A stretch of 24,696 nt of DNA from a virus. How positions within the stretch are numbered: the first letter of the stretch is position 1; each line of letters opens with the position of its first letter. The notes beneath the pieces were generated by a model. It was not told the origin of the DNA. It saw nothing but the letters and a program-made list of their open reading frames with translations, and made no database searches. The position numbers and the translations under genes are program-made. This document shows positions 9,441 through 22,882 of this stretch, piece by piece. The stretch spans positions 1-24,696 of IMG/VR virus record IMGVR_UViG_3300020383_000098; one strand, given 5' to 3'.

Positions 9441-9932
9441 ATGATTAATGAAGAAAATTTTATAACAGCACATTTCATAGATAATGAAAGAAAAAATATT
9501 GAAGTATTATTAAAAAGTGATGACGGAACAGCAGTCAATCCACATATACTTGAATATGATGTTAGTAATCCAAATTGTCAAGAATTATTAAAGTTTATTT
9601 CTTTAGACCAACTTCACGAAAATACTTATACTAAAAAACAAGAAGAACGAAAAGTTTTTGAGGCAATGATAAAAAGGGTTGCTCGGAAGGAAGGTCTTAT
9701 AAAAAGAATAATAGAAGATGTTGATCCTGATTTTTTTAAATTATTGTTTGACTTTTTATTGAGTAATAAGAAAGAACATATTGATAGATTGTTTAATTTT
9801 AAGATTTTTATATTTGAACAAGATGTTGTAAAAAATTCTAAAAATGAAACTATTAAATCTGCTATTAGAAAATCTAAAACACCATTAGAGGCATTAGATA
9901 ACTTTTTAATTATCTGGAAAGAAAGTAATTAG
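9441..9932 (+). CDS. Unknown 163-aa protein closing the left structural block
   Basis: I do not recognise this gene. An AGGAG site (TATAGGAGTAGATT) precedes the ATG. The N-terminal 55 residues look like a small beta domain (ITAHFIDNERKNIEVLLKSD). The rest is predicted helical and charged (KKQEERKVFEAMIKRVARKEGLI, then DFFKLLFDFLLSNKKEH), without Cys/His clusters, membrane helices or Walker motifs. The composition differs from the Thr/Ser/Gly-rich virion genes to its left, so it is more likely an assembly or regulatory protein than a fibre. Its stop overlaps the 3' end of the leftward operon by 23 bases, so the two transcription units run into each other. It may belong to the late transcript of the tail genes. 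Confidence 0.7.
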   Translation: MINEENFITAHFIDNERKNIEVLLKSDDGTAVNPHILEYDVSNPNCQELLKFISLDQLHENTYTKKQEERKVFEAMIKRVARKEGLIKRIIEDVDPDFFKLLFDFLLSNKKEHIDRLFNFKIFIFEQDVVKNSKNETIKSAIRKSKTPLEALDNFLIIWKESN

Positions 9933-10482
9933 TCCACCAACCAGACCAACCTTCTTCCATAAGAAATTGTCTTTGATTAAATAACATTATACTAAAGTTA
10001 TCATCTTTAGGTTTATACTCATTATTTTTAATAGAATAACATACCTTTTCATAAGTGTTAACAACTAACTTTTCTTTTTCTAACAGTTCATCAATACCTT
10101 TGCTGTATTTTTCTTGCCACATATTAGGGTCTTTTTTAAATGTATTGTAGATATGAGATTGGTCACCAGTCCAAGATATAATAGATGAATTGAAAGATGT
10201 ATGTTCTCTATCTCTCCACCAAGCGTGTAAAACGGTTGGGTCTTTTCTAATTAAATTAGGTACTTTATTGTAGATACAAATATCTAAATCAAAATATAAG
10301 TTTTCTCCATCTCTATAAATGTCAAACATTTGAAGTTTATTAAAAACACCTTTATAATTTTCAACTCCTATAACAACAAACTCATCATACTTTAAACCAG
10401 AGTATGTATCTATCATATGTTTCAGATTTCTTGTATACCAAGAGTCAAATTTAGTACCTGTATTTACACAAATTATTCTCAT
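9910..10482 (-). CDS. Glycosyltransferase-like protein, last gene of leftward operon
   Basis: This is a 190-aa protein with GT-A-like features. The N-terminal strand reads MRIICVNTGT, with a following FDSWYTRNLKHMID segment. A DxD motif (residues 65-67, in NLYFDLDICIYNKV) would bind the metal and nucleotide-sugar phosphates. Later come an HAWWRDREH region and a WTGDQSHIY segment. At 190 aa it is short for a glycosyltransferase, close to a bare nucleotide-binding core plus acceptor loop. An ATG seven codons upstream exists, but the start at 10482 is preferred. It forms an ATGA overlap with the stop of the upstream gene and has AAAGGA nine bases upstream. Its neighbours are other glycosyltransferases and radical SAM proteins, supporting a shared modification pathway. 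The sugar donor and acceptor are unknown. Confidence 0.7.
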   Translation of the reverse strand: MRIICVNTGTKFDSWYTRNLKHMIDTYSGLKYDEFVVIGVENYKGVFNKLQMFDIYRDGENLYFDLDICIYNKVPNLIRKDPTVLHAWWRDREHTSFNSSIISWTGDQSHIYNTFKKDPNMWQEKYSKGIDELLEKEKLVVNTYEKVCYSIKNNEYKPKDDNFSIMLFNQRQFLMEEGWSGWWTNYFLSR

Positions 10483-11564
10483 TTCCAATAATCCTTTATC
10501 CATTCATATTTGCTAGTGTGTATATTTGCGTCAGGATTAGCAAAGTGAACAATTTTTATATCATCATTTGGTTTATCTAATATCATATAGTCTTTATTAA
10601 ATTTTTTAATATAATCAATATTATTTTGTCTATCTTCATCTTCATTATTTGTTAGTTTACAAACCCATTCAGGTGGCATTAATGTTAAATTAATTTTATG
10701 TTTTTCACACATCCAATTAATAAAGTTTTGTTCTCCATAATATTTATAGTGTACTGCACCAGTTTTATACCAATTTAATTGCCATACTTCAGGACATTTT
10801 ATAAACTCGTTCCATATAATTTTACATTCACCAGATTTAAATTTTAGAAATCCTCCATTAAGTTTTAATCCATAAGATGATTTACCTCCCCACCATTTGT
10901 TGTAAGAAACTAACTCATTATCTGCTACAGGATAACCTATCATATCATCTACATTGCCTGTAATAATTTGGTCTATGTCCATAATAATAATTTCATCACC
11001 TGGTTTTTGATAGGCAAAATGTGGTGAAAAGAAAGATAGTTTGTGCCAATGATATTTTATATCACTATGGGGTTTTAAAGGTATTACTACATCTGCTTTA
11101 ACATTTGGATTATCACTATAACATATAAACTCAAATGGTATAGTGCAATTTCTTTTTAAACTATTATATAATTTTTCAACATAGTCTGGTGTGTATTTGC
11201 CTTCAAAATATAATGTACATATTTTTATTTTTTGGTTATTAGTTGTAGATGTATAACCTCTATATTTGTTTCCCTTTTCTCCTACTTTGTTAATACTATG
11301 ATTTAAAGGTACACTACAAAATCTTTGGCAAGTTTTTGCTGGATTGGTTTTTAATTCTTCAAAAAAGTCTTTCCATTCTTTACTATAAACAATATCTTCC
11401 ACCTTGTCATTATTTTCAAGTTTTAAATGTTTTTGTCTTAATCTTTTAATTTGTGGTTCTTGCCAACCTACAGGATTATCACACCAACAACAAGGTAATA
11501 AATAACCAGTTGCTGTATAAGCAAGTTCTTTTTTATATAAACATTTTGGATTAACTTTTATCAT
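10479..11564 (-). CDS. SPASM-like Cys domain fused to GT-A glycosyltransferase
   Basis: This 361-aa protein has two parts. Residues 1-90 carry Cys8, Cys25, Cys26, Cys28, Cys79 and Cys83 in a spacing like the SPASM-type auxiliary iron-sulfur region at the C-terminus of radical SAM enzymes. The segment YLLPCCWCDN is directly comparable with QVLPCCFFCN in the radical SAM protein at 12224-13315. Residues 112-361 are a GT-A glycosyltransferase. They start with IKICTLYF, have DxD at 196-198 (IIIMDIDQIITGNVDDM), LNGGF at 235-239, GEQNF at 277-281 and a C-terminal KIVHFANPD like the HF segment of GT8-type enzymes. The gene overlaps the preceding radical SAM gene by 14 bases. That gene lacks the Cys cluster, so the two products together add up to one radical SAM-SPASM enzyme plus a transferase. 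A SPASM region placed N-terminal to a glycosyltransferase is unusual. Confidence 0.75.
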   Translation of the reverse strand: MIKVNPKCLYKKELAYTATGYLLPCCWCDNPVGWQEPQIKRLRQKHLKLENNDKVEDIVYSKEWKDFFEELKTNPAKTCQRFCSVPLNHSINKVGEKGNKYRGYTSTTNNQKIKICTLYFEGKYTPDYVEKLYNSLKRNCTIPFEFICYSDNPNVKADVVIPLKPHSDIKYHWHKLSFFSPHFAYQKPGDEIIIMDIDQIITGNVDDMIGYPVADNELVSYNKWWGGKSSYGLKLNGGFLKFKSGECKIIWNEFIKCPEVWQLNWYKTGAVHYKYYGEQNFINWMCEKHKINLTLMPPEWVCKLTNNEDEDRQNNIDYIKKFNKDYMILDKPNDDIKIVHFANPDANIHTSKYEWIKDYWK

Positions 11565-12231
11565 CTTCTAATTCTAAAGCTATTTTATAATCTTTATAAA
11601 ATTCATCCCTTCTACTATTTAAATAACGGTTTGGATTTTTAGGTTTGTATGCGTCTTTAACACCCCAGCGACCTGAATAAAGTACATCAAATAAAATATT
11701 ATTATTTTTTGCCATTTGTCTAGCTTCTTCTATATTATTTTCATTATAATTAAAAACAATATATTGCCATCTGGAAGTAAGACCTCTTTTAGCAAATAAT
11801 TTCATAACTTCAAATAATTTTGGACCATCTTGATTAATTCTATACTTATGACTATCTTTTGGTAAACCATCAATACCAAATACCCATTTAGCTTTAGGAT
11901 TTGCCTCAAAGGCTTCTTCATACCATTCCATAGGTTTTTGTGAAGCAGCTGTATTAATATAAATTGGAATTTTATTATCATAACAATATTTTAACATTTC
12001 AATCATTTTAGGATTGAATATGGGGTCTGATGCTTGCCCACAAAATATTAAACCTTTTTTAAAAAATTTAGCTATTTTTAAAAAATCATCCCAAGGCATA
12101 TCAACTCCAGGTATTTTAAAACCTTGGCGTCTTATTGATTGCCTTTGGCATTTAGGACATTCTAAAGGACACCTAAAAGTAGATTCTATATTAATTTTCC
12201 TATCTGAAAAATCATAATTTGATTTAAACAT
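11551..12231 (-). CDS. Radical SAM core protein lacking its own SPASM domain
   Basis: This is a 226-aa radical SAM protein. The signature CPLECPKC (Cys21, Cys25, Cys28; CxxxCxxC) would bind the 4Fe-4S cluster that cleaves S-adenosylmethionine. FCGQASDP (63-70) is the glycine-containing SAM-binding strand, equivalent to FCGTWGDP in the neighbouring paralogue. The partial TIM barrel continues through IPIYINTAAS and WVFGIDG. Longer frames begin with GTG at 12255 or 12243. The ATG at 12231 is chosen because it leaves only an 8-base overlap with the preceding stop, and because the resulting N-terminus (MFKSNYDF) lines up with MLYNSSIDF of the paralogue. It stops after the barrel. The Cys-rich C-terminal region found in the paralogue is instead at the start of the next gene. 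The substrate is unknown; peptide or sugar are both possible. Confidence 0.85.
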   Translation of the reverse strand: MFKSNYDFSDRKINIESTFRCPLECPKCQRQSIRRQGFKIPGVDMPWDDFLKIAKFFKKGLIFCGQASDPIFNPKMIEMLKYCYDNKIPIYINTAASQKPMEWYEEAFEANPKAKWVFGIDGLPKDSHKYRINQDGPKLFEVMKLFAKRGLTSRWQYIVFNYNENNIEEARQMAKNNNILFDVLYSGRWGVKDAYKPKNPNRYLNSRRDEFYKDYKIALELEDDKS

Positions 12232-13315
12232 AACACTTTCCACAAAATTTTTCACATTGATAGACTGGTTTAGTCTTTGACCAACTATCTTGTAGTGTAG
12301 ATTGAAACCATTTGTGTTTCAATATATCTATTAGATTACTATTAAATACATTTAATTCTTTTTCATATTTTTTATATTCTAGCATTACAGGATGTTCTAC
12401 AAAATGTTTAGCTGCTTCAGGTACTTGTTTATTATAAAAATGAGAATTGCAAAAGAAACAACAAGGTAACACTTGTCCGTTTGGATTAACAACAACTTTA
12501 TTTTTAACTCCCCATTCACAAACAATTTTCATAACTTGTTTTGCTTTTCTTATTTTTTCTATTCTTTTTTTATCAGCAGTTCCCATATACTTTTTCTTTC
12601 TAACAAATCTTCTCCTATTTAATACTATAAACTCATCTTTGTCTTCAAATGTTTCACCTGTCTTTCTTAATACTTCTTTAGTTCCATCAGTTTTTGTAAA
12701 TTTTAATTCTTTAGTATTTTCAAATCTATCAGTTGCCATAATATTATGTCTAACTGATCCGTGTTCTACACATAGTTTTTCTATTTCATCTAGGTAATCT
12801 TCATTGTGTTTCCATATTAAAGTTTGAGTATAAATTATAGCTTTTGTATTTGATAGTGTGTTCATATTATTTAATATTTTATTTAAATAAGTATTTTGCC
12901 TATAAACTTCGTGCATTTTTTGATTGATACCTTCTATAGCAAAAACAACCATTAAATTTTTATCTCCAGCTACACCTAAATTCCACCAAAACTTATCATT
13001 TCTCATTGACCCATTTGTATTAATATTGATTTTTGTTTCATTATTAGTATCTCTAATATATTTTACCATATCAATAATATTATTATTTACAATAGGATCT
13101 CCCCAGGTTCCACAAAAGTCTGCTACTCTTAATCTTTTAATTACATTTTCTGGATATGCTTTCTTAAATGTTTCTAAATCCCAATTAATATCAGGTAACC
13201 AAGATTGTTTTTTCAAACCATTTAAATCAGTTCTATGGCATTGTGGACAACCTGCATTACATCTAGTTGTTATATCTAACATTACATCAAAATCAATACT
13301 AGAATTATATAACAT
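12224..13315 (-). CDS. Radical SAM/SPASM-domain enzyme
   Basis: This is a 363-aa protein with a complete two-part layout. CNAGCPQC (Cys19, Cys23, Cys26) is the CxxxCxxC SAM-cluster motif. FCGTWGDP (67-74) is the SAM-binding strand, and ININTNGS (96-103) is a later barrel strand. The C-terminal SPASM-like cluster region has Cys266, Cys285, Cys286, Cys289, Cys354, Cys358 and Cys361 (VLPCCFFC, then CEKFCGKC). Enzymes of this build typically modify ribosomal peptides or proteins, or act on sugars and cofactors, so a post-translational or carbohydrate modification is likely. A longer TTG-started frame exists. The ATG at 13315 is preferred because GAGGAG lies exactly seven bases upstream. It overlaps the preceding glycosyltransferase by 11 bases. 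A Lys/Arg-rich insert at about 200-262 separates the barrel from the Cys region and is absent from the neighbouring paralogue. Confidence 0.88.
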   Translation of the reverse strand: MLYNSSIDFDVMLDITTRCNAGCPQCHRTDLNGLKKQSWLPDINWDLETFKKAYPENVIKRLRVADFCGTWGDPIVNNNIIDMVKYIRDTNNETKININTNGSMRNDKFWWNLGVAGDKNLMVVFAIEGINQKMHEVYRQNTYLNKILNNMNTLSNTKAIIYTQTLIWKHNEDYLDEIEKLCVEHGSVRHNIMATDRFENTKELKFTKTDGTKEVLRKTGETFEDKDEFIVLNRRRFVRKKKYMGTADKKRIEKIRKAKQVMKIVCEWGVKNKVVVNPNGQVLPCCFFCNSHFYNKQVPEAAKHFVEHPVMLEYKKYEKELNVFNSNLIDILKHKWFQSTLQDSWSKTKPVYQCEKFCGKCYV

Positions 13316-14159
13316 TCCACAACTCCTCAAATCTTTTATTGATTAAATGTATCATCTTTACAGATTTTAAATCACTTGTTATCTTATCATTTTTCATTAA
13401 ATAAGTATGCCATTCTTTAGGAAGATTATACCAATCTATATTATCTTTATCTAATAGATAGTGTACAAATATTTCATTATTTGCAAAGAAAAGTTTTGAT
13501 ATTGTTTCACCAAAAAACTGTTCCTCTTTTGCTTTCTTTAAAGTATATGACATTTCATCTAGTCTTTCTGTATATCTTAATTTTGATATAGCACTAGAAT
13601 TACCTCCAAGTATTGCTGTATTTGCTATTAAATAATCTGTATCAAATTTATTGTCTGTTGCTAACATTGCTCTTTTACATACTGCTTTTACATATTCGTT
13701 ATACTTATCTTTATGAGATATTATTGTTTCAAAATCTACCTTGCCTTTTTTATAATTCTTTCTATCTGATTGCGACCACGAATCTATATTGGCGTTAGGA
13801 GCATAGACGCATATTTTATTCATATCAAAAGTTTCAAAAAAGTTTTCAGTTGTATTAGGAACCACATCTAAATCCATATATAAAACATTATCATATTCTT
13901 TACCTAATTTTTCCCATAGATATATCTTGTATAAATTAATAATATCAAATTCAAACCCATCAAATTTCTTTTTAAATTTTTGATAGAAAGTATCATTTTC
14001 ATATACTCTATATTCAGCATTACAATGTTTGGCGTATTCTTTTTTAACATCTACTAATCTATTATAATGTTTTTCTAATTGTTGTTTAGTGAATAAATGT
14101 TTTTCACTTAAATTAGGTTCTTTGTTTTCAATGTATATACTATAGATTATGTTTTTCAC
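13305..14159 (-). CDS. GT-A glycosyltransferase-like protein (paralogue 2)
   Basis: This 284-aa protein is paralogous to the gene just upstream. Shared features in order are KNIIYSIY at the N-terminus (KRVIYSLY in the paralogue), RLxxxKxEYAK near 34-44, a KI-Y/H-L-W/L helix near 78, and the DxD motif at 96-98 (VLYMDLDVVP). Then come FFE, a LIANTAILGG segment near 180 that would be the acceptor-side loop, and a C-terminal KMIHLINKRF. This is the layout of metal-dependent nucleotide-sugar transferases. An open TTG start lies seven codons upstream. GTG at 14159 is preferred because it aligns exactly with the paralogue's ATG and has GGAGG four bases upstream. It overlaps the upstream gene by 20 bases. 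The donor sugar and acceptor are unknown. The pair suggests sequential addition of two sugars or two acceptor specificities. Confidence 0.75.
   Translation of the reverse strand: MKNIIYSIYIENKEPNLSEKHLFTKQQLEKHYNRLVDVKKEYAKHCNAEYRVYENDTFYQKFKKKFDGFEFDIINLYKIYLWEKLGKEYDNVLYMDLDVVPNTTENFFETFDMNKICVYAPNANIDSWSQSDRKNYKKGKVDFETIISHKDKYNEYVKAVCKRAMLATDNKFDTDYLIANTAILGGNSSAISKLRYTERLDEMSYTLKKAKEEQFFGETISKLFFANNEIFVHYLLDKDNIDWYNLPKEWHTYLMKNDKITSDLKSVKMIHLINKRFEELWNVI
13323..13328 (-). promoter_or_regulatory. Shine-Dalgarno site that fixes the radical SAM/SPASM start
   Basis: On the minus strand the sequence GAGGAG is followed by seven bases (TTGTGGA) and then ATG at 13315. It lies inside the 3' end of the upstream glycosyltransferase gene. 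It makes the ATG, not the upstream TTG, the likely start. Confidence 0.75.
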
Positions 14160-15015
14160 AATACCTCCATACTGTATCAAAGTCTTTATTGACCGTGTGT
14201 ACTATCTTTGTTTCTTTTGGTATATAAAATTGAGTATCAAAGAAGTAATGCCAACGTCTATCTAACCATTGTATAGCAACTTTATTTACATTTATTTTAT
14301 ATGAAAAGATTGTTTCATTATCATAACGGAACATATCAATAATATTTTGAGGATATAAATTATCTAATCCTTCTTTTCTTAATTTTGTCATTAAATCTAT
14401 TGTATCTTTAAACTTACCAAAAAAATCTAATTTAAGGATTTGTTCTTTTGAAGCACCAATGATACCTGTATTAATAACATCATTTTTAGGATTGTTATCA
14501 GTTGCAATGAGCATTGCTTGACAATTAAAATATTTTGCTGTAGGACTTCTGATACCGTGTGTCACTTTATCAATAGTACGGTCTTGTTTATTAATCATAG
14601 TATTGTTATTATAGACAGCAATATGATTTTGTAAATCCCATACTTCAAAAAAGGAATCTTTGGTGACAGGTACAGCGTCAAAATCCAAATACAAAATTTC
14701 ATCATATTTTTTTGCTAGTTCATATAACAAATGTATCTTGTAAAAGTTTATTACTTCATAACCTGTTAATTCTGGAAAGTCCTTTAGTAAGTTCTTTTCA
14801 AATGTCTTGTATTGTTTATCATACTCATACATTTTAAAAGATACACCTATAGCTTTAGCATATTCACGTTTAATGGCAATTAATCTTTTATAATTGTCTT
14901 TAAATGAATTTCTAGTTTCTTTTGCTTTTTTTAATGTGTCGTACTTGAATTTAGAAGGACCATAATGTTCTTTTTCAGGCACATCAACATATAAACTGTA
15001 AATAACTCTTTTCAT
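14140..15015 (-). CDS. GT-A glycosyltransferase-like protein (paralogue 1), first gene of leftward operon
   Basis: This 291-aa protein begins KRVIYSLYVD and carries DxD at residues 111-113 (ILYLDFDAVP), the metal and nucleotide-sugar site of GT-A fold transferases. Upstream is a RLIAIKREYAK helix (44-54) and a YEVINFYKIHLLYEL helix (86-100). Downstream is DVINTGIIGAS near 182, and the C-terminus carries TKIVHTVNKDF. The same pattern appears in the next gene, so the two are tandem duplicates that have diverged considerably. It is the promoter-proximal member of a six-gene leftward operon in which every gene overlaps the next. The start ATG lies 37 bases from the divergent gene; a 7/8 match to the T4 late promoter sits in that gap. 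The likely role is transfer of a sugar to a phage or host surface molecule. Confidence 0.75.
   Translation of the reverse strand: MKRVIYSLYVDVPEKEHYGPSKFKYDTLKKAKETRNSFKDNYKRLIAIKREYAKAIGVSFKMYEYDKQYKTFEKNLLKDFPELTGYEVINFYKIHLLYELAKKYDEILYLDFDAVPVTKDSFFEVWDLQNHIAVYNNNTMINKQDRTIDKVTHGIRSPTAKYFNCQAMLIATDNNPKNDVINTGIIGASKEQILKLDFFGKFKDTIDLMTKLRKEGLDNLYPQNIIDMFRYDNETIFSYKINVNKVAIQWLDRRWHYFFDTQFYIPKETKIVHTVNKDFDTVWRYCEKHNL
14164..14168 (-). promoter_or_regulatory. Shine-Dalgarno site supporting a GTG start
   Basis: GGAGG on the minus strand is followed by TATT and GTG (14159-14157). The spacing is short, but the predicted N-terminus aligns residue by residue with the paralogue's first nine residues, so this GTG is the best start for the second glycosyltransferase. 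Confidence 0.55.
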
Positions 15016-15052
15016 ACTTGTATAAATAATACTAGACTATTTATTAAAGATT
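15016..15052. promoter_or_regulatory. Divergent promoter region
   Basis: This 37-base gap separates the leftward and rightward operons. On the plus strand TATAAATA at 15021-15028 is a perfect T4-type late promoter, followed 24 bases later by the ATG at 15053. On the minus strand AATAAATA (15045-15038) matches 7 of 8 positions and lies 22 bases before the leftward ATG at 15015. Both halves of the cargo island could therefore be switched on with the late genes. Confidence 0.6.
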
Positions 15053-15619
15053 ATGGATACTATATTAAAAGTGATTGATGGAGTGACCACGGATAGACTG
15101 GTCAAGTCTATTATAAATTCACTAAACGAAAATCAAGAGAAAAGCAAAGATTGGCTTATAGAAAAGTCAAAAAAATACTTTACATTTTTTGCTAAACCCA
15201 AAATATGTGTAGCAGCTGGTTGGTATGGGCATTTAGCAAATAAGCTAAAAGAATATACTAAAGGAGAGATTGTTTCCTTTGATAAAGACCTAATGTGTAA
15301 AAAGATTGGGCAAAGACTTTATAAAGATATTACATTTACAGAAGCAGATGTAAAGTATTATGATATTAAAAAATTTGATATAGTTATATGTACTTCTTGC
15401 GAACATCTTGGTCAGTATTTAATAGATGAATTTTTAAAGAGAAGAAAGAAAGGATCGCTAGTTATATTTCAATCAAATAATTATTTTTCAATTGACGAGC
15501 ATATTAATTGTCATAATAGTGTAGTAGAATTTGAGAAGAGTTTAAAATTAGAAAAGGTATTATATAGGGGTACTTTAAAATTGGATAAGTATGAAAGATA
15601 TATGGTGATAGGAATATGA
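15053..15619 (+). CDS. Class I SAM-dependent methyltransferase-like protein
   Basis: This 188-aa protein has a Rossmann methyltransferase layout. Residues 1-48 are helical (DRLVKSIINSL). A motif I-like strand-loop follows at 51-61 (ICVAAGWYGHL), with Gly56 and Gly59 in the SAM-binding turn. IVSFDKD (73-79) gives the acidic residue for the SAM ribose. FDIVICTSCEHL (108-119) is the motif IV strand. RKKGSLVIFQSNN and the C-terminal YRGTLKLDKYERYMVIGI give the closing strands. The acceptor is not apparent. It is the first gene of the rightward operon, behind a late promoter, and its stop overlaps the next start as ATGA. It may methylate a sugar, a protein side chain or a small molecule made by the island. 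Class I fold is fairly secure; specificity is open. Confidence 0.75.
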   Translation: MDTILKVIDGVTTDRLVKSIINSLNENQEKSKDWLIEKSKKYFTFFAKPKICVAAGWYGHLANKLKEYTKGEIVSFDKDLMCKKIGQRLYKDITFTEADVKYYDIKKFDIVICTSCEHLGQYLIDEFLKRRKKGSLVIFQSNNYFSIDEHINCHNSVVEFEKSLKLEKVLYRGTLKLDKYERYMVIGI

Positions 15620-16368
15620 AAATATTATTAACAGGTAGTGATGGATTTATTGGTAAAAATCTTTTAACTTGGTTAGAAAAAAAATACTTTGAGGTAATTG
15701 GTTTAGACCATAAATCAGGTAAAGAATTACTTACCTGTGATTTAAAATATAATGTTGATTGTGTTGTACATCTAGCAGGTCTATCTGGTGTCAGACAAAG
15801 TTTTGAAAATCCTACAGACTATTGGAAACAAAACGTTATCGTAAGTCAAAGAATATTTGACTATTTTAAAGATACAAGAATTTTATATGCAAGTTCAAGT
15901 ACTGCATATGAACCCTGGAGAAATCCTTATGCAATGAGTAAGTATGGTATGGAACTAATTGCTCCTGCAAATAGTTTGGGTATGAGATTTACTACTGTAT
16001 ATGGACCAGGTGCAAGAGATACTATGTTGATACCAAAAATTTTAAAAAATGATGTGCCATATATTAATACAAATCATAGTAGAGATTTTATACACGTGTA
16101 TGATATTTGTTCAGCGATTGAATCTATATTAAGACAAAAATCAATTTCAGCATTTACTGAAAAGACAGGTGTAATAGATATAGGCACAGGTACTACACAT
16201 AAGTTAACTGATATGATGGACTACTTTGGAATTACTACCGAAAAAAGAATTGGTGGTGATACTGAAAGACTTGACAACAAAGCAAACATAGACGCAATGA
16301 CAAGTTATGGTTGGGAACCTCAATATGAAGTAAAGAAATATATTGAAGATAATAGGAGAACGAATTAA
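15616..16368 (+). CDS. NAD-dependent epimerase/dehydratase (extended SDR family)
   Basis: This 250-aa protein has all the SDR landmarks. The NAD-binding GSDGFIG (GxxGxxG) lies at 7-13, and VVHLAGLSG at 50-58. The catalytic Ser/Thr is in ASSSTAYEP (92-100), followed by YAMSK (Tyr105, Lys109; YxxxK). TVYGPGARD and a RDFIHVYDI segment are typical of nucleotide-sugar epimerases and dehydratases. It is shorter than UDP-glucose 4-epimerase or GDP-fucose synthase (about 310-340 aa), mainly in the C-terminal substrate domain. It probably prepares a nucleotide sugar for the glycosyltransferases transcribed in the opposite direction. It overlaps the methyltransferase by four bases (ATGA) and has AGGA before its ATG. 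The exact sugar cannot be told from sequence. Confidence 0.88.
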   Translation: MKILLTGSDGFIGKNLLTWLEKKYFEVIGLDHKSGKELLTCDLKYNVDCVVHLAGLSGVRQSFENPTDYWKQNVIVSQRIFDYFKDTRILYASSSTAYEPWRNPYAMSKYGMELIAPANSLGMRFTTVYGPGARDTMLIPKILKNDVPYINTNHSRDFIHVYDICSAIESILRQKSISAFTEKTGVIDIGTGTTHKLTDMMDYFGITTEKRIGGDTERLDNKANIDAMTSYGWEPQYEVKKYIEDNRRTN

Positions 16369-16991
16369 TGCTAGATGATGATAAAGCATTACAACGATTG
16401 TGGTTGGTGGACTCCGTACTTGAAATGTTTACCTACAAAGCAATAGATTTAAATATTACAAAAGAAGATATAAACTTAATTGCTACAGAAATAAAATCTG
16501 TATCAAGTGGTTGGTATTTTAATGAGTACAGAAATTGTGAAGTATTAAGTATATATGATAAAAATTTTGAATGGACAAAAGAAGGTAAAACTTGTAAACA
16601 TTTAATAAAAGTTTATGAAGAAAAAATTAAACCTATTATGTCTAATAAAGGTAAGATACATATACTAAAAACTAAAAAAGGTAATCATATACCAACACAC
16701 ATAGACTGCCATCAAATAGAAATACCAGAGTTTCATCAAAAATTTAGACTTGCATTAACAGGTAAATTAGATAGTTTATATTTTTTAGATAAAGATAATA
16801 ATAAAGTTTATGCACCCACATATAATACTTATATTTTAAACGGTGGTCATCCTCACGGATTAGAACCAGATGAAGAAAAGTTAACCGTATGTATAGGAGC
16901 GCCTTGGATAGGTGAGGATAAATATTCTAACGAGGTATATACAATGAATGTGATACCTCCTAAATTAAAAAAGGAATGGATACAATGGTAA
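16368..16991 (+). CDS. Putative 2-oxoglutarate/Fe(II) oxygenase 1
   Basis: This 207-aa protein shows the double-stranded beta-helix signature. HxD lies at His111-Asp113 (IPTHIDCHQ), with FRLAL at 126-130 on the next strand (Arg127). YILNGGHPHG gives a distal His (161 or 163), followed by a strand ending in CIGAPW. The HxD...H triad would bind Fe(II), and the enzyme would hydroxylate a substrate using 2-oxoglutarate. The usual Arg after the distal His is replaced by Lys171, so 2-oxoglutarate binding may use Arg127 as in aspartyl/asparaginyl hydroxylase-like enzymes. Its start sits in TAATG, overlapping the epimerase stop by one base, with AGGAG nine bases upstream. Fold class is inferred from motifs only. 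Confidence 0.68.
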   Translation: MLDDDKALQRLWLVDSVLEMFTYKAIDLNITKEDINLIATEIKSVSSGWYFNEYRNCEVLSIYDKNFEWTKEGKTCKHLIKVYEEKIKPIMSNKGKIHILKTKKGNHIPTHIDCHQIEIPEFHQKFRLALTGKLDSLYFLDKDNNKVYAPTYNTYILNGGHPHGLEPDEEKLTVCIGAPWIGEDKYSNEVYTMNVIPPKLKKEWIQW

Positions 16992-17605
16992 ATTATAGTG
17001 AGTTTTTAACATATGGAGATTTTATACCTTTAAATTTAAGGTGTGATGTTAACAAATTATTTAAAGAAATTAAAGATTTTAAATTTAGTCAATATAATCC
17101 TAGAAAAAATATACCTAGATATGGTCTTAGCATAACTAGTATAGATGGCAAAGTCAATGGAATAGATTTAGATAGTATCTATCAATTATCTAAAGAAACA
17201 GGTATTGATTATGATGAAGATTCATTTACTACACTTACAGATGTTTACTATAAAAGCGAAGAAGTAAGAAAAATAGTAGACCCATTTAAACCTTGGTTAT
17301 GTAGAACACATTTTTTAAATTTTAAGAGAGGTGGATATTTTCCTCCTCATATAGATAATTACAGATTTGGTGAACAAAGATTTATGAGATTATTAGTACC
17401 ATTAAGAAAATGTAATCCACCTAATATGTATTTTATGTATGAAGATAAACCATTGAATTTTAATGAAGGATATACATACTTTTTAAACACAAATAAAAGA
17501 CACGCTATATTTTCTTATAAAGAAGATACCACAATGTTAGTAATGAATATCAAATGTTGTGATGAATCCATAAAAAAAATATTGAAAAATATGATGTATA
17601 AATAG
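16985..17605 (+). CDS. Putative 2-oxoglutarate/Fe(II) oxygenase 2
   Basis: This 206-aa protein has the HxD motif at His122-Asp124 (YFPPHIDNYR). Arg135 follows in RFMRLLVPL on the next strand, and the distal His173 sits in YFLNTNKRHAIFSY, preceded by an NEGYTYFLN turn. This is the pattern of prolyl- or asparaginyl-hydroxylase-like phage oxygenases. No clear Arg follows the distal His at the usual distance. Two ATGs are possible. The one at 16985 is preferred to 16976 because AAGGA lies nine bases upstream of it. It overlaps the previous oxygenase gene by 7 bases. Its last codons and stop (TAT AAA TAG) form a T4 late promoter for the downstream genes. Substrate unknown. Confidence 0.7.
   Translation: MVNYSEFLTYGDFIPLNLRCDVNKLFKEIKDFKFSQYNPRKNIPRYGLSITSIDGKVNGIDLDSIYQLSKETGIDYDEDSFTTLTDVYYKSEEVRKIVDPFKPWLCRTHFLNFKRGGYFPPHIDNYRFGEQRFMRLLVPLRKCNPPNMYFMYEDKPLNFNEGYTYFLNTNKRHAIFSYKEDTTMLVMNIKCCDESIKKILKNMMYK
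17597..17604 (+). promoter_or_regulatory. T4-type late promoter (TATAAATA) within a 3' gene end
   Basis: TATAAATA in the context ATGTATAAATAGAAATAG. It lies in the final Tyr-Lys-stop codons of oxygenase 2 and 18 bases before the next ATG, which has a GAGG ribosome binding site. It matches the late promoters at 15021 and 22277, including the preceding TG. Confidence 0.65.
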
Positions 17606-17621
17606 AAATAGAGGATAAAAA

Positions 17622-17936
17622 ATGGCAGTAACATACAAATTAATTCAACAAAGACCATCAGCTGAAGTTGATTTTTGGTCAATAGACCCAGCAGATATAG
17701 ACCAAGCAGATATAATAGCAAGAATCGAAGAATATAAGACAGCAGGAAAAATTATCAGTATAGATTTTACTGGAACAATTTCAGAAGATTTATTAGTAAA
17801 AACTATGTCAATAACTCTTATTGATGATATCGCATACGAAGAATATATAAATGACGATATTATTCTTGTAAATATTGATAACAGAATTAAATATTGCGAA
17901 GATAATTCTATTAATTGGTCAGTAGAAGAAGCGTAA
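17622..17936 (+). CDS. Unknown 104-aa acidic protein behind its own late promoter
   Basis: I do not recognise this gene. It starts MAVTYKLIQQRPSAEVDFW and is rich in Asp, Glu and Ile. Alternating hydrophobic strands (KIISIDFTGTIS, then LVKTMSITLIDDIAYEEYI) suggest a compact beta or alpha/beta fold. It has no membrane helix, metal-binding motif or coiled coil. A GAGG ribosome binding site and a late promoter directly precede it, and the desaturase gene begins six bases after its stop. The N-terminal sequence style resembles small virion-associated proteins of marine myoviruses. It may be a structural protein left between cargo genes rather than an enzyme; that is a guess. Confidence 0.7.
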   Translation: MAVTYKLIQQRPSAEVDFWSIDPADIDQADIIARIEEYKTAGKIISIDFTGTISEDLLVKTMSITLIDDIAYEEYINDDIILVNIDNRIKYCEDNSINWSVEEA

Positions 17937-17942
17937 TATAAA

Positions 17943-18572
17943 ATGGATATTTTTATTATGCTATTAATAGGTTTTGTTTGGTATCAGTTTATTGCTATGT
18001 TTGGATTGTCAATAGGTCTACATAGACACTTTGCACACAATCAATTTAAAACATCTAAACTATACGAAGTGTTTTCATTGTTTCTAGCAATGTTGGCATT
18101 TTCAAGGTCACCATTAAGTTGGATTGGTGCTCATAGAATACACCATAGATATTCAGATACAGAAAATGATCCACACTCACCTACAAATATAGGTTTTTGG
18201 AATGTTCTTTTCAATAATTGGAAAGTTAAAAAAATAGATAGACCTTATGTAAGAGATTTATATAAAAATCCTAGAATAATATTTTTTCATAATCATTGGT
18301 TGAAATTACATATTGCAACGGCAGTTATAACTTTATTAATAAGTGTGCCAATTTTTATTATATTTGTTCTCTCACCATTAGTATTAGGTTTTTTTAGTTA
18401 TGGTATTTTTAATGCGTTAGGACATAAAGACAACAAACCAGTTACAAATAGATTTATAAATTTTTTATCTGCTGGAGAAGGTCATCATAATGTACATCAC
18501 AACAACCCTAAACAAGTTAGATTAAGTAAAGGAGATATTTCAGGATACATAATTGAAAAATATTTTATATAA
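17943..18572 (+). CDS. Membrane fatty acid desaturase (acyl-CoA/acyl-lipid delta-9 type)
   Basis: This 209-aa integral membrane desaturase has the three histidine boxes. HRHFAH lies at 27-32, HRIHH at 64-68 and HHNVHH at 181-186. It also has the conserved DPHSP (76-80) and the NALGHKDNKP segment (157-166) of the stearoyl-CoA desaturase family. Hydrophobic helices lie at about 4-24, 42-53, 122-143 and 145-158. Such enzymes use a di-iron centre, oxygen and electron donors to insert a cis double bond into an acyl chain. It is shorter than bacterial homologues (about 250-320 aa), with trimmed N- and C-termini but every ligand box kept, so it is probably active. The next gene, an Asp/Arg hydroxylase-like protein, overlaps by one base. 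It would change the unsaturation of host membrane lipids, or modify an acyl chain on an envelope molecule. Confidence 0.9.
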   Translation: MDIFIMLLIGFVWYQFIAMFGLSIGLHRHFAHNQFKTSKLYEVFSLFLAMLAFSRSPLSWIGAHRIHHRYSDTENDPHSPTNIGFWNVLFNNWKVKKIDRPYVRDLYKNPRIIFFHNHWLKLHIATAVITLLISVPIFIIFVLSPLVLGFFSYGIFNALGHKDNKPVTNRFINFLSAGEGHHNVHHNNPKQVRLSKGDISGYIIEKYFI

Positions 18573-19150
18573 TGAAGTTTGATAGAAATAGTAGCGTTGA
18601 GTGGGTTGAAATGGGATTTAATGTTCCTGTTAATTCTATATTAAGAGAGTATAGAGATATAAAAGATAGTTTAATAGAACATAGACCTGAAGATGGACAC
18701 AAAGATTGGTACGCAGTTACCTTATACGGATTTGGTTCAGATAAAACTAATAGTCATTGGGAGTATAGAAAGAAAGGTGAAAAACCTTTTGTAACAGATA
18801 TTGGACAAAAATGTTCAGGAACAATTAAATGGGTTAAGTCTTTACCTTATTCTCGTATAGATGATATTAGATTTTTAGTAATAAAACCAAAAGGATATAT
18901 TACTAAACACATTGATATGCCTGAAAGAAATTGGTTAGACCCATTAAATATTAGTATAACATATCCTGAAGGTAATAAGTTTATGTTGAATAATAAAGAG
19001 TTAAAATATAAACCTGGTATGAGTGTTGTGTTAAATGTACATTATGAACACTATGTGGAAAACAATTCAGATGAAGAAAGAATACATCTAGTGGTACACG
19101 GTAAGAAAAAGAAAGAGTTTTGGAATGATATTCACACCTGGCAACAATAA
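18572..19150 (+). CDS. Aspartyl/asparaginyl beta-hydroxylase-like oxygenase (3)
   Basis: This 192-aa protein resembles the aspartyl/asparaginyl beta-hydroxylase (Asp_Arg_Hydrox) group. It has WYAVTLYG at 46-53 and HxD at His113-Asp115 (YITKHIDMPERNW). PLNISITYPEGNKF follows on the next strands. The distal His is 157 or 160 (LNVHYEHYVEN), with a distal Arg170 in EERIHLVVHG that would hold 2-oxoglutarate. The same family contains LpxO, which hydroxylates a lipid A acyl chain. Since the desaturase stop overlaps this start by one base (TAATG), a lipid substrate is worth considering alongside a protein one. No Shine-Dalgarno is evident, so translation is probably coupled to the desaturase. Enzyme class is good; substrate is inferred. 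Confidence 0.75.
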   Translation: MKFDRNSSVEWVEMGFNVPVNSILREYRDIKDSLIEHRPEDGHKDWYAVTLYGFGSDKTNSHWEYRKKGEKPFVTDIGQKCSGTIKWVKSLPYSRIDDIRFLVIKPKGYITKHIDMPERNWLDPLNISITYPEGNKFMLNNKELKYKPGMSVVLNVHYEHYVENNSDEERIHLVVHGKKKKEFWNDIHTWQQ

Positions 19151-19670
19151 AGAAAAAAACAGAAAAGGTGATTGTGATGTACTAACTTTCGCACCAGAAG
19201 AACGTATAGACATAATAAAAAAATTAAAAGATATAGATTTTAACAACGAAGCTTTAAAAGAAAATTATCAAACTATAAATTGGTTTGACTTTGATTGTAT
19301 AACGGTTTTAATGAAAGGTGATGACATACTAGGATTTAGTTCTATTTGGCACCGTTATGAATATTACAGAAAGGGTGAAGTTAGAGTATTGAATAGGTAT
19401 TGGGAGGATCCCTCGTTAAGACAACCAGGCCATAAGTTAGCAAAAACTCATATCATCTCAACTATCAATCATCAACTTGCCTTTGCAAAACAATTAGGAT
19501 ATACAAGTGCGTTTATAAGTAAAGAAAAAAACCCTCGTATGTTTAGAAAGTTATTAGATGGTATTGAAAACAAAACAAATACTGTTTGGTCACTATCTGA
19601 TAAAAAAGTTTGTGTATGTAAAGAAGAAAACCCTAGTTGTTGGCAATATAAAGGAGAAACAAAACTATGA
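19125..19670 (+). CDS. Possible GNAT-like acyltransferase
   Basis: This 181-aa protein has a layout like GNAT N-acyltransferases. A helical start (APEERIDIIKKLKDI) is followed by a strand pair (CITVLMKGDDILGFSSIWHR, typical of the GNAT central hairpin). Then come a strand-loop (EVRVLNRYWEDPSLRQPG), a long helix (THIISTINHQLAFAKQLG) and the strand YTSAFISKEKNPR. The C-terminus has three Cys residues (VCVCKEENPSC). The expected Q/RxxGxG/A acyl-CoA loop is only loosely represented by RQPGHK, so the assignment is tentative. It overlaps the preceding oxygenase by 26 bases and has no obvious ribosome binding site, suggesting coupling. Phages of this group often carry such proteins without known function. 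Confidence 0.5.
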   Translation: MIFTPGNNKEKNRKGDCDVLTFAPEERIDIIKKLKDIDFNNEALKENYQTINWFDFDCITVLMKGDDILGFSSIWHRYEYYRKGEVRVLNRYWEDPSLRQPGHKLAKTHIISTINHQLAFAKQLGYTSAFISKEKNPRMFRKLLDGIENKTNTVWSLSDKKVCVCKEENPSCWQYKGETKL

Positions 19671-20464
19671 AGAAACGACACGAATTACCTGCATTTAAAA
19701 AGTTAAATAAAACTTTTGATGTTGATAAGATACTTGAAGTTATGAGAATAATGCCTGTTAAGGATGACCTTAAAGAAAAAGGTGGGTATGGTGAGATAGT
19801 AGGTGGTAAGTGTTGTTGTCTTCAAAAAGCATTTGGTCTAAAGTTTGATACCATAGAAGAAGCATATCAGTTTCTACAAGAAAATGATGTTGAACAATCT
19901 GCATTAAAAGAAGGTCTTGGTGGTAAAAGAATGGCGTGGGATTTTAGAAACTATGTTAAACCATTTGAAGAATACATAGAAAAAGATGACAAAGGTAAAT
20001 ATCAAGTCAACGGTTCTCCTTACAAACAAATTGCATTAACACAATATAATCCAGAAATGGAAGATAGAGTTTATGATAAAAAAATACCTAAAACAAGATT
20101 AGATGAAAGACATTATAACAAAGTAAAAGATTGGGTTAAAGGAACATATTTAGAAGAAGTATTAACTTCTTTCAAAGCAGAATTTACTAGAGCAAGAATT
20201 GCTGTTATGAATCCTGGTGCGTTTGTTTCTGAACACATTGATTACAATACAGATTATTCAGTCCGTTATCATATACCTATTACAACAAATAAAGATTGTG
20301 GTTTCTATGCTGTCAAAGATGGAGAGAAAGTCTATCAGACAATGGAACCTGGATCAGTTTGGTTTTTAAATCAAGGTTTAAGACATAGTGCTTGGAACAA
20401 AGGCACTACATCACGTTCTCACATTATTATTTCGTTTTTGACACAAGAGGATATGAATGATTAA
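19667..20464 (+). CDS. Putative 2-oxoglutarate/Fe(II) oxygenase 4 with N-terminal extension
   Basis: This 265-aa protein is the largest oxygenase in the cluster. Its catalytic half is complete: RIAVMNPGAFVSEH, then HxD at His190-Asp192. SVRYHIPI places Arg200 on the following strand. GFYAV and the EPGSVWFLN turn lead to the distal His240 (LRHSAWNKG), with a distal Arg250 (TSRSHIIISF). This is very like asparaginyl/prolyl hydroxylase-type enzymes. The N-terminal 170 residues form an additional mostly helical domain with a CCC run at 49-51 and no motif I recognise; it may bind the substrate. A strong AAGGAG lies before the ATG, which overlaps the previous stop by four bases. Confidence 0.8.
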   Translation: MKKRHELPAFKKLNKTFDVDKILEVMRIMPVKDDLKEKGGYGEIVGGKCCCLQKAFGLKFDTIEEAYQFLQENDVEQSALKEGLGGKRMAWDFRNYVKPFEEYIEKDDKGKYQVNGSPYKQIALTQYNPEMEDRVYDKKIPKTRLDERHYNKVKDWVKGTYLEEVLTSFKAEFTRARIAVMNPGAFVSEHIDYNTDYSVRYHIPITTNKDCGFYAVKDGEKVYQTMEPGSVWFLNQGLRHSAWNKGTTSRSHIIISFLTQEDMND

Positions 20465-20966
20465 GAAATGGCATAAAAACTTTTTTATTGAAACAGACTT
20501 TAAAGTAGATAAAGATTTCTGGAATGATTACTTTAATGGTAAGTGGGAAGACAGCAATCAGTTGTATTCTGAATATGTTAAAGACATAACTGGTGGTAAA
20601 GATATGAATAAGTTTTATGTACAAGAGATACACAACTTTGACCGTAAATTATTAAGACTAATAAAAAGTATTTGGAATGAATTTGAAATAAGACCTAAAG
20701 AATTTAGATGTAATTTTTTTAGAGTAAAAGAAGGCGGAGAATTACCTTTACATTCAGATGCTAAAAGTAAATGTTCTTTTGTGATACCTATAACAGAAAA
20801 TACAGGAGAATTGTACTTTGATGATGGTAAAGAAAGTGCTAGTATTTTGTACGAATCAATGGTCGTATTAAATACAAAAAAACCACACGGTGTCAAATCT
20901 CCAACGAAAGAAAGGATAGTATTTCATATGGGAATACACGATATTGACTTTGAAAAATTACTTTAA
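20457..20966 (+). CDS. Putative 2-oxoglutarate/Fe(II) oxygenase 5
   Basis: This compact 169-aa protein has HxD at His99-Asp101 (ELPLHSDAKSK), then CSFVIPI and GELYFDDG on successive strands. SMVVLNTKKPHG carries the distal His144, and KERIVFHMGI the distal Arg153. All four residues expected for Fe(II) and 2-oxoglutarate binding are present with normal spacing. The N-terminal 80 residues are aromatic and charged, as in phage hydroxylases that bind a protein or small-molecule acceptor. The start has an AGAGGA site and overlaps oxygenase 4 by eight bases. It differs enough from the other oxygenases in the window to indicate a different substrate rather than a recent duplication. Confidence 0.75.
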   Translation: MIKKWHKNFFIETDFKVDKDFWNDYFNGKWEDSNQLYSEYVKDITGGKDMNKFYVQEIHNFDRKLLRLIKSIWNEFEIRPKEFRCNFFRVKEGGELPLHSDAKSKCSFVIPITENTGELYFDDGKESASILYESMVVLNTKKPHGVKSPTKERIVFHMGIHDIDFEKLL

Positions 20967-21555
20967 ATATAATGTTAGAGAATACTTTGAGCAGTATATT
21001 GATTTTAGCAATAAATCTGTACTAGACTTTGGATGTAATAATGGCAACTTTATTCGTTATAATCCACATAGTCAATACACAGGAATAGACATTAATAAAG
21101 AAATTATTGACATTAACAAAACAAAATATCCTCAATACAAATGGTTATACTACAATGGATATAATTATATGTACAATAAAAATGGAACAGAAAAATTACA
21201 GTTAAAAAATAAATATGATGTTGCAGTAGCATTTTCAGTAATCACACATATGTACGAAAATGAGATGATGGAAGTTGTTGATAATTTAAAAAAAAATTGT
21301 AGTAAGTTATTGTTGTCATACTATTCAAATACTGATAAAGATTCATATGAAAATATTTGTAAATATAGAAATCTTAAAGCAGACAAATGGAAACAAATAA
21401 GTGAAAGCAATGTATATTATTTAAAAACAAAAGATTTTTTATGGACTTTTTACAACGACCAATACATCAAATCATTATTACAATGTGATATAAAAGAAAC
21501 TAAATTTGATGACGCAACAGCAGTGTTAGGAATGCAAAAATGCTTAATAATATAA
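20944..21555 (+). CDS. Class I SAM-dependent methyltransferase
   Basis: This is a methyltransferase of about 203 aa with motif I VLDFGCNNGNF (26-36), the acidic ribose-binding residue in YTGIDINKE (45-53), motif IV-like YDVAVAFSVITHMYEN near 93-108 and KLLLSYYSN as the following strand. This is a standard class I fold. No ATG exists before the conserved region. The frame opens after a stop at 20917, and the best candidates are TTG at 20944 or 20950, both inside the previous gene. The start is therefore uncertain, and the overlap is about 17-23 bases. Lys/Asn/Tyr-rich composition matches the neighbouring genes. The acceptor is unknown; methylation of a sugar or a protein residue would fit the cluster. 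Confidence 0.78.
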   Translation: MTLKNYFKYNVREYFEQYIDFSNKSVLDFGCNNGNFIRYNPHSQYTGIDINKEIIDINKTKYPQYKWLYYNGYNYMYNKNGTEKLQLKNKYDVAVAFSVITHMYENEMMEVVDNLKKNCSKLLLSYYSNTDKDSYENICKYRNLKADKWKQISESNVYYLKTKDFLWTFYNDQYIKSLLQCDIKETKFDDATAVLGMQKCLII

Positions 21556-21564
21556 AAGAGTTTT

Positions 21565-22269
21565 ATGAACCCAACACACACAATATTTAATAAGTTAAAT
21601 CCTGATTGGTGTTTAGAACAAGTACAATGGATTATAAAAAATATACCAATGACTGAAAGTAGTAACAGTAGTGGTAAATTTTATCATACTTATCGTTGTT
21701 GGCATTTTCACAAAACTAGTGAAGTGCCTATTATAAAAGAAATGAATAGGTTGATAGAAGAACAATCAAAACAATTTGAAGAAATATATAACAGAGCACC
21801 TAAAACTGATTTCTTTAATCTTGCTTATACAGTAGATGACAGCAAAGAGATGTGTGTATGGCATAAAGACCGTTATTTCTTTAATGGTCAATATCATATT
21901 ACAATTAAAGGTAATGCAAATATAAGTGTTGATAATGGTAAAGATATTGAAACTATAAATGTGCCTAATGGTACAATGTGGTATATGAATGGTACTGAAT
22001 ATAAACACAAGATAAACACAGGCACAGGAACTGAACGTTTTGAACTTTGTGCTCCTATGAGTCAAAGACCTGAACACGTAAAAGTTAAAATAAAAGGTGT
22101 TGTAAATAATAAATGGAAATACATTGATACTAGTAGCGAAGAATACAATAACTTTAGAAAAAAACTTGCTGAAGGTGTTGAAGACGCAGTTAAAAGAGGA
22201 ACTGCTAGTAATAAAAGTGTAGCATTTCCTACACCACCTGAAGGATTTAAAACTATTGACACCTGTTAA
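21565..22269 (+). CDS. Putative 2-oxoglutarate/Fe(II) oxygenase 6
   Basis: This 234-aa protein carries HxD at His100-Asp102 (MCVWHKDRYF), then GQYHITIKGNANISVDNG. A VPNGTMWYMNG turn leads to the distal His148 (EYKHKINTG), with Arg158 (TGTERFELCAP) ten residues on. Spacing and residues fit an aspartyl/asparaginyl hydroxylase-like double-stranded beta helix. Both ends are extended. Residues 1-80 are helical with aromatic residues, and residues 165-234 (after CAPMSQRPEH) form a charged tail, part of which may be disordered. The gene starts nine bases after the methyltransferase stop and is the last of the cargo island. The tandem late promoters for the second virion block follow it directly. Confidence 0.7.
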   Translation: MNPTHTIFNKLNPDWCLEQVQWIIKNIPMTESSNSSGKFYHTYRCWHFHKTSEVPIIKEMNRLIEEQSKQFEEIYNRAPKTDFFNLAYTVDDSKEMCVWHKDRYFFNGQYHITIKGNANISVDNGKDIETINVPNGTMWYMNGTEYKHKINTGTGTERFELCAPMSQRPEHVKVKIKGVVNNKWKYIDTSSEEYNNFRKKLAEGVEDAVKRGTASNKSVAFPTPPEGFKTIDTC

Positions 22270-22276
22270 AAAAATG

Positions 22277-22298
22277 TATAAATAGTATATAAATAGTA
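22277..22298 (+). promoter_or_regulatory. Tandem T4-type late promoters
   Basis: Two perfect TATAAATA boxes (22277-22284 and 22288-22295) lie in an exact 11-base tandem repeat (TATAAATAGTA twice). They lie in the 57-base gap before the gene at 22327, which has a GGAGA ribosome binding site. The gap holds no other feature that I can see. Confidence 0.7.
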
Positions 22299-22874: not shown

Positions 22875-22882
22875 TATAAATA
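22875..22882 (+). promoter_or_regulatory. T4-type late promoter (TATAAATA)
   Basis: A perfect TATAAATA in the 34-base gap between the 111-aa and 92-aa virion genes, 18 bases before the ATG at 22901, which has an AGGAG ribosome binding site. Confidence 0.6.

Follow-up and report, generated by a model that had tools for sequence, protein, structure and literature searches.

A cluster of six divergent predicted 2-oxoglutarate oxygenases and a conserved five-gene core in the probable host recognition cluster of a pelagimyophage-like virus

A 24,696-nucleotide virus fragment, IMG/VR record IMGVR_UViG_3300020383_000098 (hereafter the window, i.e. the whole stretch of DNA analysed), carries six divergent genes for predicted Fe(II)- and 2-oxoglutarate (2OG)-dependent oxygenases, which appear to sit in the hypervariable host recognition cluster of a pelagimyophage or a close relative. 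Genes are named here by the start positions of their open reading frames (ORFs). Three of the oxygenases (18572, 19667 and 20457, i.e. OX1–OX3) are core genes that, together with a desaturase-like gene (17943, DES) and a GNAT-like gene (19125), occur in the identical order DES-OX1-GNAT-OX2-OX3 in at least 24 marine contig groups, while the other three (16368, 16985 and 21565, i.e. OXa–OXc) are accessory and exchangeable. An original prediction, made from the window's letters alone, had read the six as separate hydroxylases of one modification programme. The genes are indeed separate, divergent, clustered and under purifying selection, and their products are probably active, but three conserved core genes plus three exchangeable ones is the better description. 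The reading that we rate highest, at a probability of roughly 0.4, is that a late-expressed cassette would tailor an acyl- or glycolipid-type molecule of the cell envelope.

Judged by sequence, the fragment is a pelagimyophage or a close relative, because the 2014-amino-acid (aa) product of 1282–7326 resembles VrlC baseplate proteins, with 60.7% identity over its full length to that of Pelagibacter phage Mosig EXVC030M and 47% to that of HTVC008M. Adjoining VrlC, phages of this kind have a large, non-syntenic 'host recognition cluster' that holds tail fibres, glycosyltransferases and radical-SAM genes; the same study names an aspartyl/asparaginyl beta-hydroxylase among the core pelagimyophage proteins, gives a stearoyl-CoA desaturase as unique to freshwater pelagimyophages and assigns the glycosyltransferases of the cluster to modification of the host O-chain (PMC7029224). 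Such a cluster is expected between VrlC and gp14. The window shows the VrlC side together with tail-fibre and glycosyltransferase-like genes, and the gp14 side of the probable cluster lies beyond the 24.7-kb fragment.

Family membership and active sites of the six oxygenases

All six ORFs lie where they had been predicted and on the same strand (Table 1). They are co-directional, with overlaps or gaps of at most 16 nt around them, and 16985 starts at an internal ATG of the 16976 ORF. Each product carries the predicted HxD motif with a distal His. This motif turns up in 5–31% of shuffles of the six proteins; motif counting was therefore rejected as sole evidence, and homology is the real test. 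The Pfam profile PF05118 (Asp_Arg_Hydrox) matches 18572 (3.6e-12) and 19667 (1.8e-13) above its cut-off, as well as 20 of 20 relatives of 18572 and 12 of 26 relatives of 16985. An iterated profile seeded with 16985, searched against 2161 ORFs from related loci together with their reversed versions, gathers all six proteins and 0 reversed decoys, with last-round values of 1.4e-38 for 20457, 2.4e-28 for 16368 and 1.8e-4 for 21565. Profile–profile alignment agrees for 16985, 18572 and 19667, and more weakly for 16368 and 20457. On this homology, all six are members of the double-stranded beta-helix (DSBH) Fe(II)/2OG oxygenase superfamily, and the five proteins other than 21565 would be expected from homology to adopt the beta-helix fold. 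Their pairwise identity of 17–29% bears out the view that they are not recent duplicates.

Profile searches of the Protein Data Bank (PDB) give L-proline cis-4-hydroxylase, which acts on free L-proline, as the best solved relative of the 16985 family (1.9e-5), and a hydroxylase of a nucleoside-antibiotic pathway for 19667 (1.6e-8). Structures 7v4f/7v4o are sequence matches of 19667 and of the 16985 family. The same search returned only a weak cupin for 16368, and no match for 20457 or 18572. The N-terminal extension of OX2, about 140 residues long (19667–20080), shows high conservation, and its sole match is PHROG 1824 (function not assigned, 5.5e-5, residues 93–164).

Five alignments cover families with diverse members, i.e. 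A1 (16985 and its relatives, 26 rows), A2 (9), A3 (24), A4 (11) and A6 (20), and every row of each keeps the HxD and the distal His. A basic residue some 8–10 positions after the distal His, expected to bind 2OG, is an Arg in 18572, 19667, 20457 and 21565, as originally predicted for these four. The 16368 family has an invariant Lys171 where these four carry Arg, and relatives of 16985 have T, Y, M, I or other residues at this position and keep an invariant strand Arg135. This residue may serve in 2OG binding; we presume that Arg135, and Arg200 of OX2, correspond to the 2OG-contacting strand Arg of human AspH. With its metal triad and strand Arg kept and the usual Arg after the distal His lost, the 16985 family may bind 2OG in another way or use another cosubstrate. 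In all pairs compared, nonsynonymous divergence (dN) is well below synonymous divergence (dS) (e.g. 0.058 vs 1.196 for 20457); therefore the oxygenase genes are maintained by purifying selection. The six divergent oxygenases are probably active.

The weakest member is 21565, for which scans of IMG/VR gave a single close relative (94% identity, one contig only). A direct sequence search against the PDB yielded nothing relevant, and hhalign comparison with the other families was not significant. A protein of another phage contig (L019:5752-6267) bridges the gap: its match is strong to the common profile (6.7e-23) and weak to the 21565 profile (0.008–0.01). When 21565 was aligned with 15 diverse family members by unguided MAFFT, no column was invariant except H100, D102 and H148, and the same holds for the 15-row version used for modelling. 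Structure prediction from this family alignment reached a pLDDT of 59.4 and a pTM of 0.56, against 35.0 and 0.26 for the single-sequence control, which at that pLDDT was set aside as uninformative. The model superposes on the hydroxylase 7v4m, of the same structure series as 7v4f and 7v4o, with Z 14.0 and a root-mean-square deviation of 2.4 over 137 aligned residues; the other fold matches listed are mostly 2OG oxygenases of several subfamilies with tied Z values. Lack of a beta-helix fold, the outcome that had been named as speaking against the original prediction, was thus not what modelling of 21565 gave. This model of moderate confidence supports a DSBH fold, and its support is not independent of the homology claim because the modelling alignment consists mostly of distant members.

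Related islands contain further DSBH oxygenase lineages (L019:5752-6267, L007:4392-4982, L055:3630-4157, L084:1058-1501, L040:4484-5260 and L060:10822-11472). These share less than 40% identity with each other and with the six, so the oxygenase repertoire across related phages exceeds that of the window.

Table 1. Predicted features of the window
Feature	Position	Strand	Supporting match or observation
VrlC-like baseplate protein (structural gene bordering the hypervariable island on the left)	1282..7326	+	60.7% identity over 100% to Mosig VrlC
Island arm on the opposite strand: radical-SAM and SPASM proteins (11551, 12224), glycosyltransferase family 8-like (14140), others	9910..15015	-	
T4-type late promoter motif TATAAATA, 32 nt upstream of ORF 15053	15021..15028	+	
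Methyltransferase-like protein MT1, recurrent in related islands (tentative)	15053..15619	+	No Pfam match
NAD-dependent sugar epimerase/dehydratase	15616..16368	+	PF01370 E=2.6e-25
Accessory oxygenase OXa	16368..16991	+	H111-x-D113, R127, H163, K171 invariant (Lys replaces usual Arg)
Accessory oxygenase OXb, L-proline cis-4-hydroxylase-like	16985..17605	+	H122-x-D124, R135, H173 invariant; no Arg after distal His; orthologue in Mosig
Internal T4-type late promoter motif TATAAATA, 25 nt upstream of ORF 17622	17597..17604	+	
104-aa protein, function not assigned	17622..17936	+	In subset of islands with 22327/22531 tail-fibre pair
Core gene 1 (DES), membrane acyl-CoA-desaturase-like di-iron enzyme	17943..18572	+	PF00487 E=1.6e-11; PDB 4zyo E=2.8e-18
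Core gene 2 (OX1), PF05118 oxygenase	18572..19150	+	H113-x-D115, N126, H160, R170 invariant
Core gene 3, GNAT-like protein, identity weakly supported	19125..19670	+	Conserved neighbour in 24 contig groups
Core gene 4 (OX2), PF05118 oxygenase with conserved ~140-aa N-terminal extension	19667..20464	+	H190-x-D192, R200, H240, R250 invariant
Core gene 5 (OX3), compact oxygenase	20457..20966	+	H99-x-D101, S107, H144, R153 conserved
SAM-dependent methyltransferase MT2, frequent but not constant neighbour	20944..21555	+	PF08242 E=1.3e-9
Accessory oxygenase OXc, rare	21565..22269	+	H100-x-D102, H148, R158; one other IMG/VR contig found
Two T4-type late promoter motifs (22277, 22288) upstream of tail-fibre genes 22327 and 22531	22277..22295	+	

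The five-gene core and its variable flanks

Because several of the oxygenases served as queries when the compared loci were fetched, the joint occurrence of OX1–OX3 is partly built in; DES and the GNAT-like gene were never queries. Both flanks of the core vary: OXa and OXb may lie upstream, lie downstream or be absent, MT2 is variable, and further oxygenase lineages appear. Exceptions to the core itself are contig L017, in which OX1–OX3 are present and the GNAT-like gene is displaced, and Mosig and contig L006, which contain only OXb, the desaturase and a distant OX2-like gene. At least five of these oxygenases are found in each of 17 contig groups, and the cluster is therefore a recurring trait.

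OX1 overlaps DES by one base, and all three histidine boxes of the membrane di-iron type are invariant in 20 diverse members of the DES family. The product of 19125 is less clear: the Pfam GNAT profile matches 1 of 23 family members weakly (E=0.093), similarity to the PDB GNAT structure 3t9y is weak (E=0.22), and similarity to the Mosig N-acetyltransferase is remote (hhalign probability 36.5%).

No relative of OX1, the GNAT-like protein, 16368, 20457 or 21565 was found in 50,697 phage records, and OX2 has only distant relatives there. This near-absence indicates that the core stems from an essentially uncultured group. A scan of 84,980 cellular genomes gave a single match, a contig binned as Rhodobacteraceae (L127, FZLS01000007.1) with an OX2 that is 76% identical; it is probably a mis-binned phage contig.

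Late-promoter motifs and candidate functions

The six genes had been predicted to form one transcription unit. They are co-directional and tightly packed, as this would require, but a second T4-type late-promoter motif lies inside the cluster at 17597. The motif TATAAATA is no more frequent in the window than expected by chance (7 vs 7.2), and one further site, at 22875, precedes gene 22901. Placement is what distinguishes the sites: five of the seven fall 10–50 nt upstream of a gene, a zone that makes up 2.3% of the sequence, compared with 37 of 556 sites for pooled permutations of the motif's letters, and six of eight do so in Mosig. The exact motif precedes the corresponding gene in 10 of 26 related contigs only, and the internal promoter is therefore not universal. 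No clear terminator was found between 15053–17605 and 17622–22269, and a simple sigma-70 scan gave as many sites as shuffled sequences. Motif placement suggests two late units, i.e. 15053–17605 with two oxygenases and 17622–22269 with four, and late expression of the cassette would be expected on the same basis. The 104-aa protein (17622–17936) directly follows the internal motif and is found only in islands with the 22327/22531 tail-fibre pair.

According to the envelope-tailoring reading, each oxygenase would bind Fe(II) via its HxD...H triad and would consume O2 and 2OG while inserting oxygen, normally as a hydroxyl group, into its substrate, and DES would act on an acyl chain in the membrane. 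What the core enzymes would jointly decorate is an envelope molecule of the acyl or glycolipid type, or else an amino-acid/sugar conjugate, whereas accessory oxygenases, methyltransferases, radical-SAM proteins and glycosyltransferases would vary the decoration between phages. The likely benefit would be an altered surface of the infected cell against competing phages. We rate this reading highest because of (i) the desaturase partner, (ii) the resemblance of OX1 to OlsC and LpxO and (iii) the neighbouring sugar epimerase, glycosyltransferase family 8-like and radical-SAM genes. OlsC and LpxO are lipid acyl 2-hydroxylases, and the NCBIfam models of both match 14 of 20 members of the OX1 family (best values 1.9e-4 and 5.2e-4, respectively), above any other model. 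The assignment of this island's glycosyltransferases to host O-chain modification (PMC7029224) also speaks for the reading. A more specific version is improbable as it stands: the five-gene core would be an undescribed phage pathway for making or remodelling an envelope molecule of the acyl-amino-acid or glycolipid type. In this pathway the desaturase would add a double bond, acyl transfer would fall to the GNAT-like protein and three dedicated oxygenases would hydroxylate defined positions, and marine phages would keep this core intact and swap accessory oxygenases to diversify the product.

Several observations weigh against envelope tailoring. The weak but recurrent match of the OX1 family to these PF05118 hydroxylases comes from shorter proteins, and 18572 scores far below the curated equivalog cut-offs (14.0 bits vs 500 and 13.9 vs 450). 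The 16985 family also weakly picks the two models (2 of 26 members), so the OX1 match may only reflect which models the library holds. Furthermore, the GNAT assignment is weak, and among solved structures 16985 and 19667 come closest to hydroxylases of free amino acids or nucleoside antibiotics. These relatives, and the fold match of 21565 to a nucleoside-antibiotic hydroxylase, would fit a different product, i.e. a modified amino-acid/sugar metabolite. Such a product has been proposed for a cyanophage cluster whose genes include 2OGFeDO, cupin-like DSBH, carbamoyltransferase and halogenase (PMC7824862). The same slot in Mosig holds carbamoyltransferase, aminotransferase, nitroreductase, radical-SAM and TauD-like genes. 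However, no halogenase, carbamoyltransferase, non-ribosomal peptide synthetase or peptide-precursor gene is recognised in the window, and a membrane desaturase in the core is atypical of such pathways; we rate a small-molecule product next after envelope tailoring, though as rather unlikely.

The original prediction implied virion proteins as the target, in which case the oxygenases would hydroxylate Asp, Asn, Pro or Lys in tail-fibre or baseplate proteins during their synthesis. This is not supported, and we consider it doubtful. Within the window, only the location of the oxygenase genes between the VrlC baseplate gene and the tail-fibre genes, with late-promoter motifs in common, points there; the family PF05118 does include protein Asp/Asn hydroxylases. 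Collagen-like repeats are a classic hydroxylation substrate, but (GXY)8 runs of this kind are absent from every ORF of the fetched loci, and the core's fixed partner, a membrane acyl desaturase, plays no part in protein hydroxylation. Many unrelated auxiliary genes occupy the same island, and no link of phage tail fibres with prolyl hydroxylation was found in the open-licence papers searched. It is very unlikely that the main effect of the oxygenases is to use up 2OG, O2 or iron and thereby to alter nitrogen or carbon signalling in the host. Cyanophage 2OG enzymes have been proposed to modulate 2OG/NtcA signalling (PMC3037559), but that proposal concerns cyanobacteria, whereas the closest relatives of this phage infect Pelagibacter, and such a drain leaves unexplained both six divergent active sites and the fixed pairing with a desaturase and a GNAT-like gene. 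Nucleic-acid modification or repair by some of the six, in the manner of AlkB or TET, is hardly to be expected: some AlkB-type chains occur among the fold matches of 21565, but at these Z values fold matches are tied across the superfamily, and the sequence matches are to PF05118 and amino-acid hydroxylases rather than to AlkB or TET.

Known systems and neighbouring genes

In its hypervariable region beside VrlC, with tail fibres, glycosyltransferases and radical-SAM genes, the window resembles the host recognition clusters described for pelagimyophages and cyanomyophages (PMC7029224), while the six oxygenases and the fixed five-gene core distinguish it. Mosig has in the same slot an OXb orthologue (55.7% identity), a desaturase (43.8%), a methylase, an N-acetyltransferase and an AspH-like gene adjoining tail-fibre genes. 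By contrast, OX1, OX3, OXa and OXc are missing from Mosig, the AspH-like gene shares only 27% identity with OX2, and aminotransferase, FMN reductase, peroxiredoxin and TauD-like genes stand in place of the missing oxygenases.

That a marine phage genome may hold several non-orthologous 2OG oxygenases is already known from HTVC023P-type pelagiphages (PMC9599517) and T4-like cyanophages (PMC3037559). In both, they are auxiliary metabolic genes without a conserved operon; those of the HTVC023P type are near each other but not adjacent and are partnered with a ferrochelatase, unlike the fixed order and desaturase partner seen here. The amino-acid/sugar secondary-metabolite cluster of cyanophage S-SSM6a likewise combines 2OGFeDO and cupin-like DSBH enzymes with sugar- and amino-acid-modifying genes (PMC7824862), but the window has no recognised halogenase, carbamoyltransferase or HAD phosphatase, and has a membrane desaturase and a GNAT-like gene instead. 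No description of the fixed five-gene core with a desaturase, or of the six-fold clustering, was found in the literature searched (open-licence papers only).

Few auxiliary genes of marine phages are as common as those for 2OG oxygenases. A fixed core with an acyl desaturase narrows the search for their substrates, as three oxygenases would be expected to act in one pathway, apart from the exchangeable accessory enzymes, and the five genes offer a co-expression unit for testing.

On the opposite strand, the region 10479–13330 encodes two radical-SAM proteins, one with a SPASM-like domain. Beside this pair lies a further protein with an N-terminal cysteine cluster, which may be a glycosyltransferase fusion.

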